Of a stretch of 25,938 nt of DNA, positions 1,824 to 23,795 are shown one piece after another (position 1 is the first letter of the stretch; each line of letters begins with the position of its first letter). The stretch is from a virus. The notes beneath the pieces were generated by a model. The model was not told the DNA's origin, made no database searches, and saw only the letters and a list, made by a program, of their open reading frames with translations. Made by a program: the position numbers and the translations under genes. Location of the stretch: positions 1-25,938 of the IMG/VR virus record IMGVR_UViG_3300005838_000059. One strand, given 5' to 3'.

Positions 1824-1847
1824 GGGAGGAGGACTAGTCCTCCTCCC
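1824..1847 (+). terminator. 24-base perfect palindrome, probable terminator
   Basis: GGGAGGAGGACT is followed at once by its reverse complement, so the RNA can form a 10-bp GC-rich stem with a CTAG loop. It is followed by ATCCTTTT. It separates the early block from the IF-1 operon, whose late-type box starts 8 bases later. Confidence 0.7.
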
Positions 1848-1854
1848 ATCCTTT

Positions 1855-1862
1855 TATAAATA
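1855..1862 (+). promoter_or_regulatory. Late-type promoter box TATAAATA before infA
   Basis: This is an exact match to the T4 late promoter -10 element. Only 6 bases separate it from ATG 1869, so transcription would begin at about the start codon. There is no Shine-Dalgarno between, which points to a leaderless mRNA. Confidence 0.65.
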
Positions 1863-1868
1863 TATGTG

Positions 1869-2087
1869 ATGGGTAAATCCGATTACTACGAAGCTGAAGG
1901 CAAAATTACTAGTCTTATTCCAGGAGGAAAATTTTTAGTAGAACTTGACAACGGCGCTGAAATAACAGGACATTTGAGTGGCAAAATGCGCTTAAATAAA
2001 ATAAATGTACTAATTAACGACCTAGTTACAGTTGAAATTAGTCCATATGACTTAACGCAGGGAAGGATAACGTACAGGTTTAAATAA
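1869..2087 (+). CDS. infA: Translation initiation factor IF-1
   Basis: The product is 72 aa, the same length as E. coli IF-1. It has the family's OB-fold landmarks in order: EGKITSLIPGGKFLVELDNG, then TGHLSGKMR (E. coli AHISGKMR), then VTVEISPYDLTQGRI (E. coli VTVELTPYDLSKGRI). IF-1 sits in the ribosomal A site and, with IF-2 and IF-3, sets start-codon selection. I chose ATG 1869 because it gives the family length; GTG 1866 would add one residue. The stop overlaps the next ATG by one base. A phage copy could keep initiation running or change mRNA preference late in infection (inference). Confidence 0.93.
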   Translation: MGKSDYYEAEGKITSLIPGGKFLVELDNGAEITGHLSGKMRLNKINVLINDLVTVEISPYDLTQGRITYRFK

Positions 2088-2586: not shown

Positions 2587-2617
2587 CTAAATACCATAAA
2601 CTAAGGATTGTTTATGG
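2587..2617 (+). promoter_or_regulatory. Late-type box plus ribosome-site hairpin of the 838-aa virion gene
   Basis: CTAAATA (2587-2593) is followed directly by a perfect 8-bp hairpin with arms CCATAAAC (2594-2601) and GTTTATGG (2610-2617). The loop TAAGGATT holds the Shine-Dalgarno, and the 3' arm contains the ATG (2614). Transcripts started from the CTAAATA box would begin inside the 5' arm and could not fold the full hairpin, whereas read-through RNA could. Confidence 0.55.
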
Positions 2618-5130
2618 CCGCACCAGTATGGGAAACACCGCCCGGCAGTTTAGGTACTATTGTTGAGCAAGAGTTTTATCAAATTCAACTAAGTGCTAGT
2701 AACACCGCATCATACGAATATCTAAGTGGAGTATTGCCTCAAGGCATACGTGTAACTAACACTGGCTTGACTGAAGGATATCCTAAAAACGTAGATTACA
2801 TTCAAGGCGTTCCAAAGGCTGTCACAAAAGATACAACTAGTCAGTTTACTGTAAGAGCATCAAGCGAAGACGGTTTAGTAGCTGATCGTGTTTTTACCCT
2901 AACAGTTACAGGGCCAGATGCACCGATTATTGATATATTGCCAACCAGTGACCTAGGTGATTACTTTGACGGAGAATTTATTAGTGAACAACTAACAGCA
3001 ACAGACGAGGATCCTGGAGATACACAAACCTGGAAACTAATTGCTGGCGAGTTACCCACAGGCCTTACACTGAGTACAAGTGGCTTACTAAGTGGATGGT
3101 TAGAGCCGCTGCCAGCGGAAACAGGTGACAGCGGGTTCGATGTAAACAACTTTGACATAGGTAGTTTAGATTTTAGTGTAATTAGTAGAAGTGTTACATA
3201 CAAGTTTACGGTACAAGTAGCAGATTCTGGCGGATTAACTAGCTCTAAAGAGTTTACAATTTTTGTAGCTAGTAAAAATACATTGCAAGCAGATACTACT
3301 TTATATACAGCAGATAGTTTTGCACCAACTGTTGATAGTAGTTTAATTGGTAGCAAGATTACTAGTGATTCGTCAAATAAAAGAACACCTCATATGGTAA
3401 CAAAACCAGCAGATTTTGGTGAAATATTACACGACAATTATTACTCATTCCAGTTTATTGGAGCAGATTTAGACAAAGATCCTATAATGTATAGTATAAC
3501 AACTGGCGATGGCCTGGGTTACGATGCTGATGGCAGTAATTTTGATATGGCTGGATTGGACCGAGGAGATTTAGAATTACCTCCTGGAATGACACTGGAT
3601 ACAACAAGTGGGTGGTTATCTGGTTATATTCCAGTTCAATCAGCAACAACAAAAGATTATAAATTTGGTATTCAGGTATACAAGAAAGACCATACAGAAT
3701 TCATTAGTGAGATAACATTCTTTACATTAACTATAATCGGTAACGTAGCTGGGATAGTGACATGGCCCACAGCAGATCTAGGTACAATAGATACTGGCAG
3801 TGTTAGTGAACTGGATGTTTCAGCTACTATAAGCAATAATAAGTCTGTAGTATATGAGTTAAAAACAGGAAAAGACAACAATCTTCCACAGGGACTAAAA
3901 TTAGAACAAACTGGCCTTGTAACTGGCCGTGCAAGTTTTGAGTCTTTTATGGCAGATACTGGAACTACAACGTTTGATAAAGATGATACGCTAATTACAG
4001 AAACAACTTTTGAGCGTGAGTTTAAATTTTCAGTTAGAGTATATAGTTCAGATTTAACTATTGATACGTTCCAGGAATTTACTGTAACACTCACTCCTAG
4101 CAGTTTTAAACCATACGAAGCATTATATGTAAAAGCATTACCAGTAATAGAGCAACGAGATCTTTACGCAAGTCTTGTTAATAACTCAGATGATATTGCT
4201 ACAGAAGATGTATATAGATTAGGAGATTTAAACTTTGGTGTTCAGAAAGAAGTTAGAGCTCTTATCTCAAGTGGATTAAACCCAGTGCCTACAACTGATT
4301 ATGTTGAAGCAATGGCATATAACCATCATAACAGTGTATTAAGGTTTGGCGATATTAAAGTAGCACATGCATATGAAGCAGACGGAAAAACTGTTAAGTA
4401 TGATGTAGTTTACGTAGATCTAATAGATAGAAATCAGGGAATAGATCCAACTAGTAAATTGTCTAGCCCAGCAGCCCAACAAATTGACCTACACAAACAA
4501 CAAAGCGTAACGGCTATGACAGGTTTTAACGCACCATTAACAATAGACAGCCATCAACTAAGTGTTGATAGCAGTGGGTTTAAAGCGGCTGATGGAAATT
4601 ACAGATATGCATATCCTAATGCTATTGAAAACATGCGTTCCAGGATATCAACAGGCGTTGGATATGCTGTATTAGAGCGTTTAACTTTGCCACAGTGGAT
4701 GCAGGATAAGCAGTTAGACGCAAATAGTGTGGTATTAGGTTACACATTTGCGGCTCCGTTGGTATATTGCAAGGCTGGAAGTGGAGATAAAGTTGCATAT
4801 CTTCTTAACCAAAGAACTAACATTGATTTAAAGAAGATTAGCTTTGAAATAGATAGATTTATACTTGACAATAATCTTAGCAAAAACTATAATAAGACAA
4901 GTGGAGAATGGACTAGTGCAGCTGAAACAACATTTGATGTGGCTCAAGCTGAAACTAATCCATCAATAACAGATAAGTCTACATTTGATGGCGGAGGAAC
5001 TAGATTCTTCGCTAATGTAGATGCATATGCTGCACCAGATGAAAACGATCAGTTTATTAAATTTCCAAAACGAAGTCTTTTCTATTATGATAGAAGTTCT
5101 TCAGGTTTCGAATATAATAATAACAGTTGA
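2614..5130 (+). CDS. Large virion protein with four Ig-like (He_PIG type) repeats
   Basis: This 838-aa protein starts MAAPVWETPPGSLGTI. Four repeats, at about residues 8-95, 110-220, 265-375 and 385-500, share the pattern (D/S)LG.., a beta-strand, LPxGhxLxxTGLxxG, and a closing FTVxV strand pair. This is typical of putative Ig/cadherin-like domains (He_PIG) in secreted and virion proteins. The region after about 505 (ALYVKALPVIEQRDLY onward) is different and may be the virion-anchoring or receptor-facing part. Its late-type promoter box and the tail-fibre-like gene after it support a tail, baseplate or fibre component. The exact structure it belongs to cannot be told. Confidence 0.8.
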   Translation: MAAPVWETPPGSLGTIVEQEFYQIQLSASNTASYEYLSGVLPQGIRVTNTGLTEGYPKNVDYIQGVPKAVTKDTTSQFTVRASSEDGLVADRVFTLTVTGPDAPIIDILPTSDLGDYFDGEFISEQLTATDEDPGDTQTWKLIAGELPTGLTLSTSGLLSGWLEPLPAETGDSGFDVNNFDIGSLDFSVISRSVTYKFTVQVADSGGLTSSKEFTIFVASKNTLQADTTLYTADSFAPTVDSSLIGSKITSDSSNKRTPHMVTKPADFGEILHDNYYSFQFIGADLDKDPIMYSITTGDGLGYDADGSNFDMAGLDRGDLELPPGMTLDTTSGWLSGYIPVQSATTKDYKFGIQVYKKDHTEFISEITFFTLTIIGNVAGIVTWPTADLGTIDTGSVSELDVSATISNNKSVVYELKTGKDNNLPQGLKLEQTGLVTGRASFESFMADTGTTTFDKDDTLITETTFEREFKFSVRVYSSDLTIDTFQEFTVTLTPSSFKPYEALYVKALPVIEQRDLYASLVNNSDDIATEDVYRLGDLNFGVQKEVRALISSGLNPVPTTDYVEAMAYNHHNSVLRFGDIKVAHAYEADGKTVKYDVVYVDLIDRNQGIDPTSKLSSPAAQQIDLHKQQSVTAMTGFNAPLTIDSHQLSVDSSGFKAADGNYRYAYPNAIENMRSRISTGVGYAVLERLTLPQWMQDKQLDANSVVLGYTFAAPLVYCKAGSGDKVAYLLNQRTNIDLKKISFEIDRFILDNNLSKNYNKTSGEWTSAAETTFDVAQAETNPSITDKSTFDGGGTRFFANVDAYAAPDENDQFIKFPKRSLFYYDRSSSGFEYNNNS

Positions 5131-6248: not shown

Positions 6249-6328
6249 CATATATGAATAAACAAGAATTTCAAAAGTTACAAGAAAAAAGTAGCATTAA
6301 CGGCAATAACCTAAGGGAAAGGGATTAG
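6245..6328 (+). pseudogene. 27-codon ORF, probable truncated relative of the next gene
   Basis: ATG 6245 to TAG 6328 encodes 27 residues that include MNKQEFQKLQEK. The next protein begins MNKDQFKNLQAK, so the first residues are clearly related. The small ORF then loses similarity and stops, and its leader is a copy of the one before the 107-aa gene. It is best read as a remnant of a duplication, though a real micropeptide cannot be excluded. Confidence 0.5.
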
Positions 6329-6331
6329 ACA

Positions 6332-6796
6332 ATGAACAAAGATCAATTTAAAAATCTACAAGCAAAACTAGAGAGCATCTGGAACGAAGATAGTTTTATC
6401 GTCAATGATGCCCCAAGACAAGCGCCTGCAGGAACAGCAGGTCAGCCTGGCTCAAAGGGTCCTAAAGATGCTGAGAAAGTAATGGTTGCTAAAGATGCTA
6501 GAAAGCTGCCGCCGAATCGGAGAAAGAGGGACGCCTGGCGCGTTTCCCAGGGCCTGGCGAATCTACGTGCAGCACCGAACCTTCGTCACCTGGCGAAGCT
6601 ACGTAAAGAAGAACAAGCAACAGTCTCTGAAGCAACACAAGGCCCAGGAGTAGATGCAGTAATGGAACTTATAGACATGGGCGTTAGCAAAGAAGACTTG
6701 TTTGATCAAATGATGCGTGATCACAGTGATGACGAGCTCTTGTCATTTGCAGACGATTACCGTCGTATGAATGACTTCCCTGGAATGGAAGACTAG
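6332..6796 (+). CDS. Protein of unknown function (154 aa) with a GC-rich basic insert
   Basis: The protein starts MNKDQFKNLQAKLESIW, and its C-terminal half is acidic and helical (VDAVMELIDMGVSKEDLFDQM). Between about residues 48 and 95 it is very basic (RKLPPNRRKRDAWR). That DNA (about 6505-6605) is much richer in GC than its surroundings and contains a 16-base repeat 36 bases apart. The short opening MNxxxFxxL is shared with the preceding mini-ORF and loosely with the next gene (MNTPQEFRKLIES). The function is unknown to me. Confidence 0.65.
   Translation: MNKDQFKNLQAKLESIWNEDSFIVNDAPRQAPAGTAGQPGSKGPKDAEKVMVAKDARKLPPNRRKRDAWRVSQGLANLRAAPNLRHLAKLRKEEQATVSEATQGPGVDAVMELIDMGVSKEDLFDQMMRDHSDDELLSFADDYRRMNDFPGMED
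6553..6604 (+). repeat. Imperfect 36-base tandem repeat inside the 154-aa gene
   Basis: CCTGGCGAATCTACGT (6553-6568) recurs as CCTGGCGAAGCTACGT (6589-6604), 15 of 16 bases alike and exactly 12 codons apart. A third CCTGGCG is at 6534-6540. In protein this gives LANLR and LAKLR. Confidence 0.75.
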
Positions 6797-6804
6797 GAAC
6801 TAAG

Positions 6805-7200
6805 ATGAACACACCACAGGAATTTAGAAAACTAATTGAATCTATAGAAGTCCAGGAAGCAGCAGACGGTCCTAAAGAGCAACTCATGGACATCATGGAA
6901 CAACTACGCCAACTATCCGCCGAGGCTGCTGGTATTATGGCAGAGCACTTCCCCCAAGCTCATCAGCAAGGCGATGCATACGGTGCATTTAATTTTGGTA
7001 GCAGTAACAACCAGTATGACACTTCATTTGAAAGCATTTTAAATTCTTTAGACGATGAGAGTGATAGCAATTTTGAAGATGCTGCTAATGAATTAGATAG
7101 TCTAATTAGAAGCGGCATGGATGATGAACAGGCCCTTCAGAAAGTTGCCAGTGAATATGATGTTCCTATTGAAGAACTAGAAGATTACATGGGTAGATAA
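6805..7200 (+). CDS. Acidic protein of unknown function, 131 aa
   Basis: The gene starts 8 bases after the preceding stop. The product begins MNTPQEFRKLIESIE, has a helical section (LMDIMEQLRQLSAEAAGIMAEHF), an Asn/Ser/Gly-rich linker, and an acidic C-terminal domain (DEQALQKVASEYDVPIEELEDYMGR) of UBA-like or HTH-like helical spacing. I recall comparable acidic proteins in marine T4-like genomes near structural genes, but no role. The shared MNxxxEF opening hints at a small family with the two ORFs before it. Confidence 0.65.
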   Translation: MNTPQEFRKLIESIEVQEAADGPKEQLMDIMEQLRQLSAEAAGIMAEHFPQAHQQGDAYGAFNFGSSNNQYDTSFESILNSLDDESDSNFEDAANELDSLIRSGMDDEQALQKVASEYDVPIEELEDYMGR

Positions 7201-7208
7201 GAAACATA

Positions 7209-7237
7209 TTGCATTAAAAGACTCCTGCTAGTATAAT
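7209..7237 (+). promoter_or_regulatory. Sigma70-type promoter inside a hairpin before mazG
   Basis: TTGCAT (7209-7214) and TATAAT (7232-7237) have 17 bases between them. The -10 lies in the apical part of the hairpin at 7221-7256. Transcription would begin at about 7244, so RNA from this promoter lacks the 5' arm. Confidence 0.65.
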
Positions 7238-7262
7238 ATAAACATATTGCAGGAGTTTTTTT
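7221..7262 (+). terminator. Terminator-like hairpin that also masks the mazG ribosome site
   Basis: Arms ACTCCTGC (7221-7228) and GCAGGAGT (7249-7256) are followed by a run of seven T. An inner stem AATAT/ATATT can form in the loop. The 3' arm contains the only Shine-Dalgarno (AGGAG, 7251-7255) for ATG 7263. Read-through RNA would end here or hide the site, whereas RNA started within the loop would expose it. Confidence 0.65.
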
Positions 7263-7673
7263 ATGACACAAATTGATCTAAACAAATACAAAGAGTTTGT
7301 AGATGCTGTAACAAGCAAAGAGAGTAAAGCAAATAATGAATATATTATGCGGTGGACTACACTTGTAAACCAACGCAATGCTAACCTACCCCGAATGTTA
7401 ACAGCATGCCTAGGCCTTAGTGCAGAAGCAGGCGAGTTTACTGAAATTGTTAAAAAAATTGTATTCCAAGGCAAACCAATGGATGATGACAATATTTTCC
7501 ATATGAAGCGTGAGCTTGGCGATGTTATGTGGTACTGGATGCAGGCTTGTATGGCATTGGATCTAGATCCTAATGATGTTATTGCAGAGAATGTAAATAA
7601 GTTACAAGCAAGATATCCAGACGGAGAGTTTGATCCATACTACAGTGAGAATAGACAGGAAGGCGATCTTTAA
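7263..7673 (+). CDS. mazG: MazG-like nucleotide pyrophosphohydrolase
   Basis: This is a 136-aa protein of the all-alpha NTP pyrophosphatase group. The metal-binding motif is complete: E55-A-G-E58 in GLSAEAGEFTEIVKK and E84-L-G-D87 in ELGDVMWYWM. Family members hydrolyse (d)NTPs, or in some cases ppGpp-like nucleotides, to monophosphates. In marine phages MazG has been proposed to adjust nucleotide pools or the host starvation response; the substrate here cannot be read from sequence. Its expression appears to be set by the hairpin and promoter just upstream. The next gene starts immediately after its stop. Confidence 0.9.
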   Translation: MTQIDLNKYKEFVDAVTSKESKANNEYIMRWTTLVNQRNANLPRMLTACLGLSAEAGEFTEIVKKIVFQGKPMDDDNIFHMKRELGDVMWYWMQACMALDLDPNDVIAENVNKLQARYPDGEFDPYYSENRQEGDL

Positions 7674-7919
7674 ATGCATCCATTAGCACCAGACTTTGAT
7701 GACATGCCAGACGAAAAACTAAACGAAAAGATAAAAAATCTTAACTCTAAGATGGTGTCTGCATATAGATCTGGGTCTCAAGCTGTTGGGCAAATGCGTA
7801 TGCTAATGGACGATTACCAAGAAGAAAGACGACGTCGCGACAAGGAGTCTTTAGACAAATTAATGGAACAGAGTAAGGAAGATGGAAATGATTGGGACGA
7901 TATTATCGATATCGGGTAA
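7674..7919 (+). CDS. Short coiled-coil protein conserved in T4-like phages
   Basis: The gene follows the mazG stop without a gap. The 81-aa product begins MHPLAPDFDDMPDEKLNEKI, continues as a helix with GQMRMLMDDYQEERRRRDKE, and ends in an acidic tail. I recall this opening and layout in proteins widespread among marine T4-like phages, without a confirmed role. A coiled coil over residues 13-70 is likely. Confidence 0.7.
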   Translation: MHPLAPDFDDMPDEKLNEKIKNLNSKMVSAYRSGSQAVGQMRMLMDDYQEERRRRDKESLDKLMEQSKEDGNDWDDIIDIG

Positions 7920-11043: not shown

Positions 11044-11070
11044 ATGAAAGAATTATGGACTGAAAAATAG
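11044..11070 (+). pseudogene. Orphaned 5' end of the clamp-loader gene
   Basis: ATG 11044 begins the reading MKELWTEK and then hits TAG at 11068-11070. The intact clamp-loader protein begins MKALWTELYRP at 11774. Clamp-loader ATPases commonly start with W(T/V)EKYRP, so the orphan copy keeps the consensus Lys that the intact gene has as Leu. It lies directly after the methyltransferase stop, where the clamp loader would be expected to start, and is separated from the real gene by the endonuclease ORF. Confidence 0.65.
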
Positions 11071-11773
11071 TTTCTATGCATAAATATAGTTGTAAGGAGA
11101 TTACAACTATGCCATATAATAAACCATTTGCTGAAGAAATAATAACAGAAGAACTTTGTGATTATGGATGCGGTCAAACTGCAAACTACATTTTTAGAAA
11201 AGGAAAACTTTGTTGTTCTAATCACCATAATAGTTGCCCAGCAAAACGCAAAGCATTTAGCGATTTAGACCACAGTGAAAGAACAACAAAAAGTCTAGAA
11301 ACTAGAACTAGGCTAGGTATAACAAAAACTTCACAAATAAAAGCAGCAATCACCCGCAAAGAAAATGGACACTATGACAAACTTGCTGATACAATGCGTA
11401 AACATTGGGAAGAGCATCCTTGGAACAATATGCCAAAATGGGGAGTATATAAGGACACAGAAATCAAGTATCAGAGTAAGCCAGAATATAACTTTCTGCA
11501 AGAACTTGAAGATGAGCACGACTTAACCTGGGTTAGAGAAAATGTTAAAAGAGGCCCATGTTTTTATTATAACGATCCTACAAGCGGGAAAGAAAGATTG
11601 TATATAAGCGATTTCCAGATTGAAAATACTATATTTGAAGTTAAAGGAAACTATACTTGGAATAAACACGGTAAAGACAAAGGTTTGGAAGAAACAAATA
11701 AAGCAAAACTTGACAAAGTTAAAGAATCAAACTATAATGCTATATTAGTATTAGAAGGAAAAAGGTTAAAAAT
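11071..11773 (+). mobile_element. Free-standing homing-endonuclease insertion
   Basis: A 703-base block with its own late-type box, ribosome-site hairpin and endonuclease ORF sits between two versions of the first codons of the clamp-loader gene. The ends are exact: the block starts after the orphan TAG, and its ORF ends in ATGA overlapping the regenerated ATG at 11774. Confidence 0.65.
11079..11108 (+). promoter_or_regulatory. Late-type box and SD-in-loop hairpin before the endonuclease
   Basis: CATAAATA (11079-11086) is followed by a 7-bp hairpin with arms AGTTGTA (11088-11094) and TACAACT (11102-11108). The 7-base loop AGGAGAT holds the Shine-Dalgarno, and the ATG (11109) follows at once. 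Late transcription would begin at about 11093, at the end of the 5' arm, so only read-through RNA could form the hairpin. Confidence 0.65.
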
Positions 11774-11777
11774 ATGA
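11109..11777 (+). CDS. Putative homing endonuclease, zinc-binding N-terminus and PD-(D/E)XK-like nuclease
   Basis: The 222-aa protein begins with a cysteine cluster (C17, C21, C35, C36, C43, in CDYGCGQTANYIFRKGKLCC) like the zinc-binding N-termini of several phage homing endonucleases. The C-terminal half has a PD-(D/E)XK signature: D168 in YISDFQIENT and E177-V-K179 in FEVKG, followed by a helix with TNKAKLDKVKESNY and the strand AILVLEGK. Such enzymes cut a site in an endonuclease-free relative and spread by recombination. Its position at a split clamp-loader start supports this role. I chose ATG 11109 because the hairpin and AGGAG directly precede it. Confidence 0.78.
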   Translation: MPYNKPFAEEIITEELCDYGCGQTANYIFRKGKLCCSNHHNSCPAKRKAFSDLDHSERTTKSLETRTRLGITKTSQIKAAITRKENGHYDKLADTMRKHWEEHPWNNMPKWGVYKDTEIKYQSKPEYNFLQELEDEHDLTWVRENVKRGPCFYYNDPTSGKERLYISDFQIENTIFEVKGNYTWNKHGKDKGLEETNKAKLDKVKESNYNAILVLEGKRLKI

Positions 11778-12694
11778 AAGCACTCTGGACAGAGTTGTAT
11801 AGACCTAGCACATTAACAGACTATGTGTTCCGCGATGATGCACAGCGTAAACAAGTACAAGGATGGGTAGACAGCGGAATGATTCCGCACTTACTTTTTA
11901 GTGGTGCTCCTGGTGTGGGTAAAACTACACTAGCAAAAATATTAGTTAACCTACTAAACATTAACGAATATGATGTGTTAGAGATCAATGCTAGTCGTGA
12001 GAACAGTGTTGATGCAGTTAGGGAGAAAATTACTAACTTTGTGGCAACGATGCCCTTTGGTGAATTTAAAGTAGTACTACTTGATGAGGCTGATTACATT
12101 AGTCCCAACGGGCAAGCGGCATTACGTGGTGTTATGGAAACATATGCAAGTACCGCACGTTTTATCCTAACATGTAACTATCCCAATAAAGTTATTCCAG
12201 CATTGCATAGTAGATGCCAGGGCTTCCACATTGAGAAAATTGACACCACAGAATTTACTGCAAGGGTAGCAACAGTATGTGTTACAGAAGGTGTTAACGT
12301 TGATATTGACACACTGGATAGTTATGTAAAAGCAACGTATCCTGATCTGCGTAAATGCATTAATTTAGTGCAAATGAACACAGTTGACGGCCAACTAGTA
12401 AAGCCACAGGAATCAGATAGTGCAACAGCAGACTATAGACTTGCTGTAGTAGACTTGTTTAAAGAAGGAAAGATACTGGATGCACGTAAACTATTATGCA
12501 CCCAGGTACGTGCGGATGAGATGGACGAGTTGTTTCGTTGGATGTATGATAACTTAGAGCTGTGGAGTACTACACAAGAAGGACAGGATCAAGCAGTGCT
12601 AATTATTGCCAAAGGATTACGCAACATTCCCATGGTAGCAGATCAAGAAATCAATTTATCGGCGACATTGGTAGAATTATGTCAAATAGGATAG
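11774..12694 (+). CDS. 44: Sliding-clamp loader ATPase, T4 gp44 type
   Basis: This is a 306-aa AAA+ protein. Walker A is GAPGVGKT (residues 44-51), Walker B VVLLDEAD (100-107), sensor 1 TCN (133-135), and the arginine-finger SRC motif HSRCQG is at about 145-150. The helical collar domain follows. It opens and loads the sliding clamp onto primed DNA for the phage replisome. In T4 the partner gene 62 comes directly after 44; here an SGNH-like gene overlaps its last 16 bases, so any gp62 or clamp gene must lie outside the window. The start overlaps the endonuclease stop (ATGA). Confidence 0.92.
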   Translation: MKALWTELYRPSTLTDYVFRDDAQRKQVQGWVDSGMIPHLLFSGAPGVGKTTLAKILVNLLNINEYDVLEINASRENSVDAVREKITNFVATMPFGEFKVVLLDEADYISPNGQAALRGVMETYASTARFILTCNYPNKVIPALHSRCQGFHIEKIDTTEFTARVATVCVTEGVNVDIDTLDSYVKATYPDLRKCINLVQMNTVDGQLVKPQESDSATADYRLAVVDLFKEGKILDARKLLCTQVRADEMDELFRWMYDNLELWSTTQEGQDQAVLIIAKGLRNIPMVADQEINLSATLVELCQIG

Positions 12695-23388: not shown

Positions 23389-23420
23389 GGTGGCAATCAA
23401 GAGTATTGCCACCCTAGTTT
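23389..23420 (+). terminator. Strong hairpin in the glnK leader (terminator or attenuator)
   Basis: Arms GGTGGCAAT (23389-23397) and ATTGCCACC (23405-23413) form a perfect 9-bp stem with a 7-base loop, followed by CTAGTTTT. It could end upstream late RNA or, if RNA starts at 23366, attenuate glnK-amtB. Confidence 0.6.
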
Positions 23421-23441
23421 TGTGAGTCAGGAGTACTCACA
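23421..23441 (+). promoter_or_regulatory. SD-in-loop hairpin at the glnK start
   Basis: A perfect 7-bp stem with arms TGTGAGT (23421-23427) and ACTCACA (23435-23441) encloses the 7-base loop CAGGAGT. The ATG at 23442 follows at once. Sizes are the same as in the endonuclease hairpin at 11088-11108. Confidence 0.65.
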
Positions 23442-23795
23442 ATGAAAGGATACATTATGAAACTAGTAACAGCAATCATCAAGCCCTTCAAGCTGGATGA
23501 GGCTAAGGAAGCTCTGGAAGGTATAAACATCTATGGGCTTACAGCTTCTGAAGCAAAAGGGTATGGTAGACAAAAAGGTCACACGGAATTATACCGTGGG
23601 GCAGAATACACAATAGATTTCCTCCCAAAAATTAGGTTAGAAATGGCAGTAGCTGACAATCAAGTAGAGTTAGTGATCGAGTGTCTATCCGCAGTTTTGA
23701 AAACAGGAAAAATAGGCGATGGTAAAATTTGGACAACACCAATTGATACCATGGTAAGAGTAAGAACAGGAGAAACTGGGGAGAACGCATTATGA
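23442..23795 (+). CDS. glnK: PII nitrogen-regulatory protein, GlnK type
   Basis: The 117-aa reading starts MKGYIMKLVTAIIKPFKLDE; from ATG 23457 it is 112 aa, the GlnK length. The T-loop is intact (GHTELYRGAEYTIDFLPK, Tyr51 in GlnK numbering, the uridylylation site). The B-loop TGKIGDGKIW and C-loop RVRTGETGE bind ATP/ADP and 2-oxoglutarate. GlnK senses nitrogen state and plugs AmtB when ammonium is plentiful. ATG 23442 has the SD-in-loop hairpin; ATG 23457 has AAAGGA inside codons 2-3 of the longer reading. It overlaps amtB by 4 bases (ATGA). Confidence 0.95.
   Translation: MKGYIMKLVTAIIKPFKLDEAKEALEGINIYGLTASEAKGYGRQKGHTELYRGAEYTIDFLPKIRLEMAVADNQVELVIECLSAVLKTGKIGDGKIWTTPIDTMVRVRTGETGENAL

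Follow-up and report, generated by a model that had tools for sequence, protein, structure and literature searches.

Late-promoter-like box, hairpin, and genes of the locus

The window analyzed here, i.e., the whole stretch of 25,938 nt, represents a fragment of the record of an uncultured virus (IMGVR_UViG_3300005838_000059). By its clamp loader and PhoH proteins, its nearest named phages are the jumbo phages Paride/PA5oct, Atu_ph07, and Phosso. The phage group hosting the two hairpins described below is that of the uncultured marine giant phages, which are distantly related to T4. The first hairpin, at site A, covers the start of a gene for an Ig-domain protein, behind an infA-iscA operon. 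The features are as follows.

1824–1847, + strand: intrinsic terminator-like hairpin upstream of infA
1855–1862, + strand: TATAAATA, 6 nt upstream of the ATG of infA (1869); predicted +1 at 1868, adjoining the AUG
1869–2087, + strand: infA-like gene (IF-1; PF01176, E = 3.7e-21)
2263–2568, + strand: IscA/HesB-like gene (PF01521), upstream end of a possible read-through RNA
2586–2593, + strand: late-promoter-like box ACTAAATA; the CTAAATA core (2587–2593) is a degenerate form of the clade's ATAAATA
2594–2601, + strand: 5′ arm of the hairpin, CCATAAAC, at promoter positions −5 to +3
2599, + strand: predicted late +1, from the T4 spacing with the box at −13 to −6 (PMC1524935)
2603–2607, + strand: Shine-Dalgarno (SD) sequence AAGGA, read from the sequence, within the hairpin loop
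2610–2617, + strand: 3′ arm, GTTTATGG, with the start codon (2614–2616) inside, from folding and helix pair counts
2614–5130, + strand: gene for an 838-aa protein with Ig-like (He_PIG) domains (Pfam PF05345, E = 3.5e-17; Ig-like beta sandwiches in the model), probably a virion protein

The site A helix has 8/8 Watson-Crick pairs, 2594–2601 with 2610–2617, closing an 8-nt loop, TAAGGATT. Its 5′ arm abuts ACTAAATA directly, with no gap (2593/2594). A preliminary description of this DNA had pointed to a CTAAATA (2587–2593) touching a perfect 8-bp hairpin with the ATG in its 3′ arm, and this is confirmed. In T4, the late box occupies positions −13 to −6 relative to +1 (PMC1524935). With this spacing, the late RNA is predicted to start at 2599, retaining 3 of the 8 bases of the 5′ arm, in agreement with the earlier suggestion that it would begin inside that arm. 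The T4-type box is so placed that late RNA is predicted to be without the 5′ arm, whereas in the predicted fold of a longer, upstream-initiated RNA the AUG is inside the 8-bp helix. The calculated cost of opening the SD-AUG segment is 8.1 kcal/mol in the read-through RNA versus 3.2 kcal/mol in the predicted late RNA.

A structure search with the Ig-domain protein returned Ig-like proteins of uncultured phages and no named virion part, and PDB sequence searches were empty. The neighbors of the gene in relatives are fibre-like (T4_gp9_10_N). These neighbors and the Ig-like domains make it probable that the product is a virion protein; the label of virion gene, given to it earlier, stands at that level.

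The box itself needs a closer look. ATAAATA is enriched upstream of starts in the clade, and gp55-like late sigma genes, sought with the gp55 sequence of the T4 record, occur in six of eight large relatives, as would be expected of gp55-dependent late promoters. The gp55 count is that of the large relatives. The CTAAATA variant, in contrast, shows no such enrichment in the clade, and in the window it is found five times, not above the 7.9 expected by chance. Late promoters with CTAAATA, preceded by A/G C at −13/−12, are known from Aeromonas phage Aeh1 (PMC1524935, PMC2988020), which shares this box with the window. The proposal that CTAAATA is a late promoter is helped by the promoter motif of orthologues, which stands in register with the hairpin; the box in the window is a degenerate copy of the clade motif, (A/G)ATAAATA.

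The terminator scan also lists 2618–2593, on the minus strand, as terminator-like. That the hairpin ends minus-strand transcription is scarcely credible: the T tract is weak and is not kept in the hairpins of orthologues, and no minus-strand gene is near. This reading was dropped on those two grounds.

The hairpin against chance and among orthologues

Judged by single-sequence energy, hairpin A exceeds chance by a small margin only. The 44-nt segment of site A folds at −9.5 kcal/mol (z = −1.98), a value equaled in 9 of 200 shuffles; folded over 81–141 nt, the site is not unusual (z about −0.8). For the window alone, the closing of the start compared with upstream shuffles gives p = 0.15. Window-wide, there are 10 perfect hairpins of at least 8 bp versus 5.6 ± 1.8 expected in shuffles, and three of the 10 (2594–2617, 11086–11110, and 23420–23442) carry the SD in their loop, with the start codon lying in or at the 3′ arm.

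In the last of these, TTGTGAGT pairs with ACTCACAA, and the final base of the hairpin is the A of what may be the start codon of P-II (glnB). The vicinity has no ATAAATA box, and a second ATG follows at 23457. The P-II (glnB) gene near 23442 is followed by an ammonium-transporter-like gene.

Support for hairpin A is carried by comparison, which renders the case convincing. Orthologues of the Ig-domain gene were gathered from viral contigs, and two of them, in genomes G007 (72% aa identity) and G002 (65% aa identity), share the infA-iscA neighborhood. A box sits at the matching place in both, AATAAATA in G007 and GATAAATA in G002, and a helix follows right after the box in all three, of 8 bp in the window, 11 bp in G007, and 9 bp in G002. 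The three-sequence alignment has nine pairs, with two two-sided changes, one one-sided change, and no broken cells; sliding the pairing along the alignment lowers it to 27–50% paired. Pairing is thus conserved in relatives, with the exact architecture in three sequences only, so few that shuffles match the alignment score in 67 of 500 trials.

Most orthologues have a different gene on their upstream side, a fibre-like one of virion type, and their hairpins are weaker or otherwise built. The SD or AUG is closed by other arms, such as AATACTC/GAGTATT in locus L128 and AAATACT/AGTATTT in L147. The end of the promoter pairs with the SD region in L128, L136, and L147, while in L126, L127, L129, L132, and L134 the arm lies upstream of the box; ATAGCG pairs with CGCTAT in L127, and GACTCC with GGAGTC in L126. 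The L125 orthologue has no hairpin. By this comparison, the arms turn over fast and the logic persists. Over the orthologues, the mean calculated cost of opening SD-AUG is 8.8 kcal/mol in read-through RNA versus 6.5 kcal/mol with the upstream part shuffled (Wilcoxon p = 5e-4, among related sequences). The mean in the predicted late RNA is 4.1 kcal/mol, a drop that is partly trivial because that RNA is shorter.

Such pairing is missing from the neighboring fibre-like family, which has the same promoters in the same genomes (Mann-Whitney p = 0.002, 16 versus 56 representatives). A tblastn search with this fibre-like neighbor gave no match in named phages. An iscA profile search for further phages with the iscA/Ig-gene order gave 80 iscA loci, and the Ig-gene signature was next to none of them.

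Could the palindrome have arisen by chance from an AT-rich leader, a compact late promoter, and an ATG, with no function? The marginal z of hairpin A would allow this, as would the high rates of hairpins in null models of short AT-rich leaders. The compensatory changes and the turnover of arms among orthologues speak against it, as do the occurrence of the second site in differing architectures and the neighboring fibre-like family without a hairpin; we regard a chance origin as unlikely.

A further reading makes the palindrome an operator, through which a phage protein represses by way of the promoter DNA or the RNA hairpin, much as I-TevI does. The inverted repeat does overlap the promoter, and autorepression of I-TevI at its own late promoter is known (PMC2988022). 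However, the arm sequences differ wholly among orthologues while pairing is kept, which points to base pairing rather than to a binding site, and an operator is quite improbable here.

The second site in gene 44 and other start-codon hairpins

The preliminary description held that the arrangement recurs at a second place in the window. The recurrence is real, with a box at 11079–11086 and a 10-bp stem reaching to 11110. The features are as follows.

11044–11070, + strand: remnant of the start of gene 44 (MKELWTEK, then a stop), before the insertion
11079–11086, + strand: late-promoter-like box CATAAATA
11086–11110, + strand: second hairpin, 10 bp (11086–11095 with 11101–11110), GGAG in the loop, ATG at 11109–11111
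11109–11777, + strand: homing-endonuclease-like gene, an insertion that follows codon 8 of gene 44
11774–12694, + strand: clamp loader gene 44 with a re-coded 5′ end (phrog_168, E = 1.8e-77)

Gene 44 is an early/middle gene in T4. Members of the 11109-gene family occur in three lineages, each directly after a gene 44 start remnant and before a re-coded gene 44; relatives lacking a gene of this type have an intact gene 44 start. The gene is thus an insertion in a conserved gene, flanked by remnants of the target, and the remnant together with the re-coded start is the footprint expected of a homing endonuclease, which its product probably is. The C-terminal part of the 11109 protein has D168 and E177xK179, in the order alpha-beta-beta-beta-alpha-beta (in a poor model, pLDDT 48.6), which suggests a putative PD-(D/E)xK nuclease. 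Its match to DUF7487 is below the cut-off.

The hairpins of this nuclease family also vary. An 80%-identical copy keeps 7 bp of the hairpin. In a 56%-identical copy (L221), the hairpin is another one altogether: it has 13 bp, encloses the box, and holds the SD in its 3′ arm (z = −6.2). The hairpins are distinct across the three lineages, the relatives of the gene showing two versions besides that of the window. The contig carrying L221 and L222 (G023, 117,666 bases) has ATAAATA sites that are mirror-symmetric along its entire length, and it looks like an inverted duplication of itself, probably an assembly artefact. Given this apparent duplication, L221 and L222 are one locus counted twice.

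These structures bear on the idea that the hairpin aids translation, either by presenting the SD in the loop or by giving the RNA a stable 5′ end. The SD is indeed unpaired in the loop at 2594–2617 and largely so at 11086–11110. But the AUG is paired, the late RNA would be without the hairpin, and the SD is inside the stem in L128, L126, and L221. An aid to translation is very improbable indeed.

An unbiased test asked how general the association is in these phages. ATAAATA accompanies 18 of the 66 starts (27%) that have a helix of 7 bp or more, versus 130 of the 1269 others (10%). The odds ratio is 3.3 (p = 1.4e-4), compared with 1.75 (p = 0.07) for permuted motifs. For T4 starts, the counts are 9 of 18 with a helix versus 15 of 159 others. 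In Paride, ATAAATA accompanies 3 of 9 starts with an 8-bp helix versus 17 of 207 (p = 0.04); at the 7-bp threshold, p is 0.19.

Hairpins had been expected to be enriched genome-wide over all late promoters, and they are not: across the late-promoter genes, 24 hairpins (E ≤ −7) were found versus 20 in shuffles. At the strictest cut, all late-box genes give 15 versus 9.8 in shuffles. The hairpin-box device is confined to particular genes. HNH-type genes with the same device are found in G007 (Pfam HNH, just below the cut-off) and in G016 (by sequence likeness only). Two lysis-type genes have a late-type box and a start-codon hairpin, namely L092:16589 (GH19-like) and L115:10593 (T4-lysozyme-like, with a weak hairpin). 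These two are functional counterparts of T4 gene e.

Among the Paride genes with both helix and ATAAATA is Paride_0006, whose SD lies in a GC-rich 8-bp stem (z = −3.8) and whose loop contains GATAAATAC. It is flanked by two pieces annotated as UvsX-like (L321 2240–3742; Paride 6255–7745), a position that resembles that of an endonuclease in an interrupted gene. Paride_0006 has no Pfam or Rfam match, and Rfam scans of the window and of the Paride hairpin site gave tRNA only and no match, respectively.

A proposed promoter-of-origin switch and its upstream RNA

We propose that the promoter from which an RNA originates would decide whether the Ig-domain gene is translated from it. RNA initiated upstream would have both arms and fold, placing the start codon in the 8-bp helix, so that initiation would be poor. 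RNA from the late promoter, beginning at about 2599 inside the 5′ arm, would form no helix and would be translated, giving late synthesis of the protein. At the second site (11086–11110), the same action would apply to the homing-endonuclease-like gene ahead of gene 44. The switch is supported by the compensatory changes, the turnover of arms, the fibre-like family without pairing, and the association of helices with ATAAATA, and we consider it probable at site A and likewise at the second site.

The mechanism has been proven for T4 genes e, soc, 49, and I-TevI (PMC3014915, PMC2988022). For T4 gene e, the read-through RNA hides the start and the late RNA is without the 5′ arm, with an effect of about 100-fold (PMC3014915). 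Gene e differs from site A in having the SD in the stem and two late promoters, and at site A the effect is a predicted one. The likeness to soc and e drawn in the preliminary description holds: the soc geometry is matched, and the helix is conserved, with compensatory changes, in site A orthologues. In soc, as at site A, the late box is followed nearly at once by the 5′ arm, CATGTAATT in soc; the loop holds the SD, and the 3′ arm, AATTACATG in soc, contains the ATG. Furthermore, soc is a capsid gene behind early genes, and the site A gene is a probable virion gene. Site A differs from soc in its gene, with no sequence relation, in its CTAAATA box, and in an upstream operon that may be late. 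The second site has its own precedents in I-TevI, I-TevII, and segB of T4 and mobE of Aeh1, where an endonuclease gene in an early/middle unit has a late promoter within a hairpin (PMC2988022). The 11109 gene matches this arrangement. Those endonucleases are GIY-YIG or HNH, whereas the 11109 protein looks PD-(D/E)xK-like and its gene sits in gene 44.

The source of the read-through RNA has been reconsidered. It had been taken to be early RNA from the infA operon, and this is not supported: infA has its own TATAAATA at the AUG, a terminator lies upstream, and no strong sigma-70 promoter was found on the plus strand between 900 and 2800. Hence, the operon RNA may itself be late. In a comparison of infA-like loci (window 1824–1871; L124 about 510–527; L143 about 2180–2233), TATAAATA or AATAAATA was found 6–7 nt 5′ of the infA ATG in three genomes (the window, G007, and G002), and a terminator-like hairpin just upstream of infA in two of the three (the window and G007). 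The infA box, if used, may give a leaderless late infA (IF-1) message.

The same switch might then work with a late infA-iscA operon, the hairpin barring translation of the Ig-domain gene off the operon RNA and the gene's own promoter setting the dose. The boxes, the terminators, and the lack of a strong sigma-70 promoter in that interval favor a late operon, as does the fibre-like virion gene found upstream in most orthologues. Against it, infA RNA from a box so near the ATG would have no leader, an unusual situation; early RNA could yet get past the terminator; and the T4 precedents are all early/middle versus late. We hold this reading to be possible, with a likelihood well below even. That the hairpin separates two late RNAs, with a leaderless infA plus iscA transcript insulated from translation of the Ig-domain gene and the dose set by the gene's own promoter, is rather doubtful. 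The early-versus-late and late-versus-late versions predict the same anatomy.

The promoter-of-origin switch would extend a device proven in T4 to distant, uncultured marine giant phages, to which Paride, a cultured jumbo phage, is probably to be added. The genes newly linked to it are the Ig-domain gene and the nuclease in gene 44. Since pairing arms are replaced quickly and the logic is constant, the switch is to be found by geometry, not by sequence. For phage metagenomes, the rule would be that where a late box lies in a start-codon hairpin or touches it, the gene sits on an RNA that is not meant for its translation.
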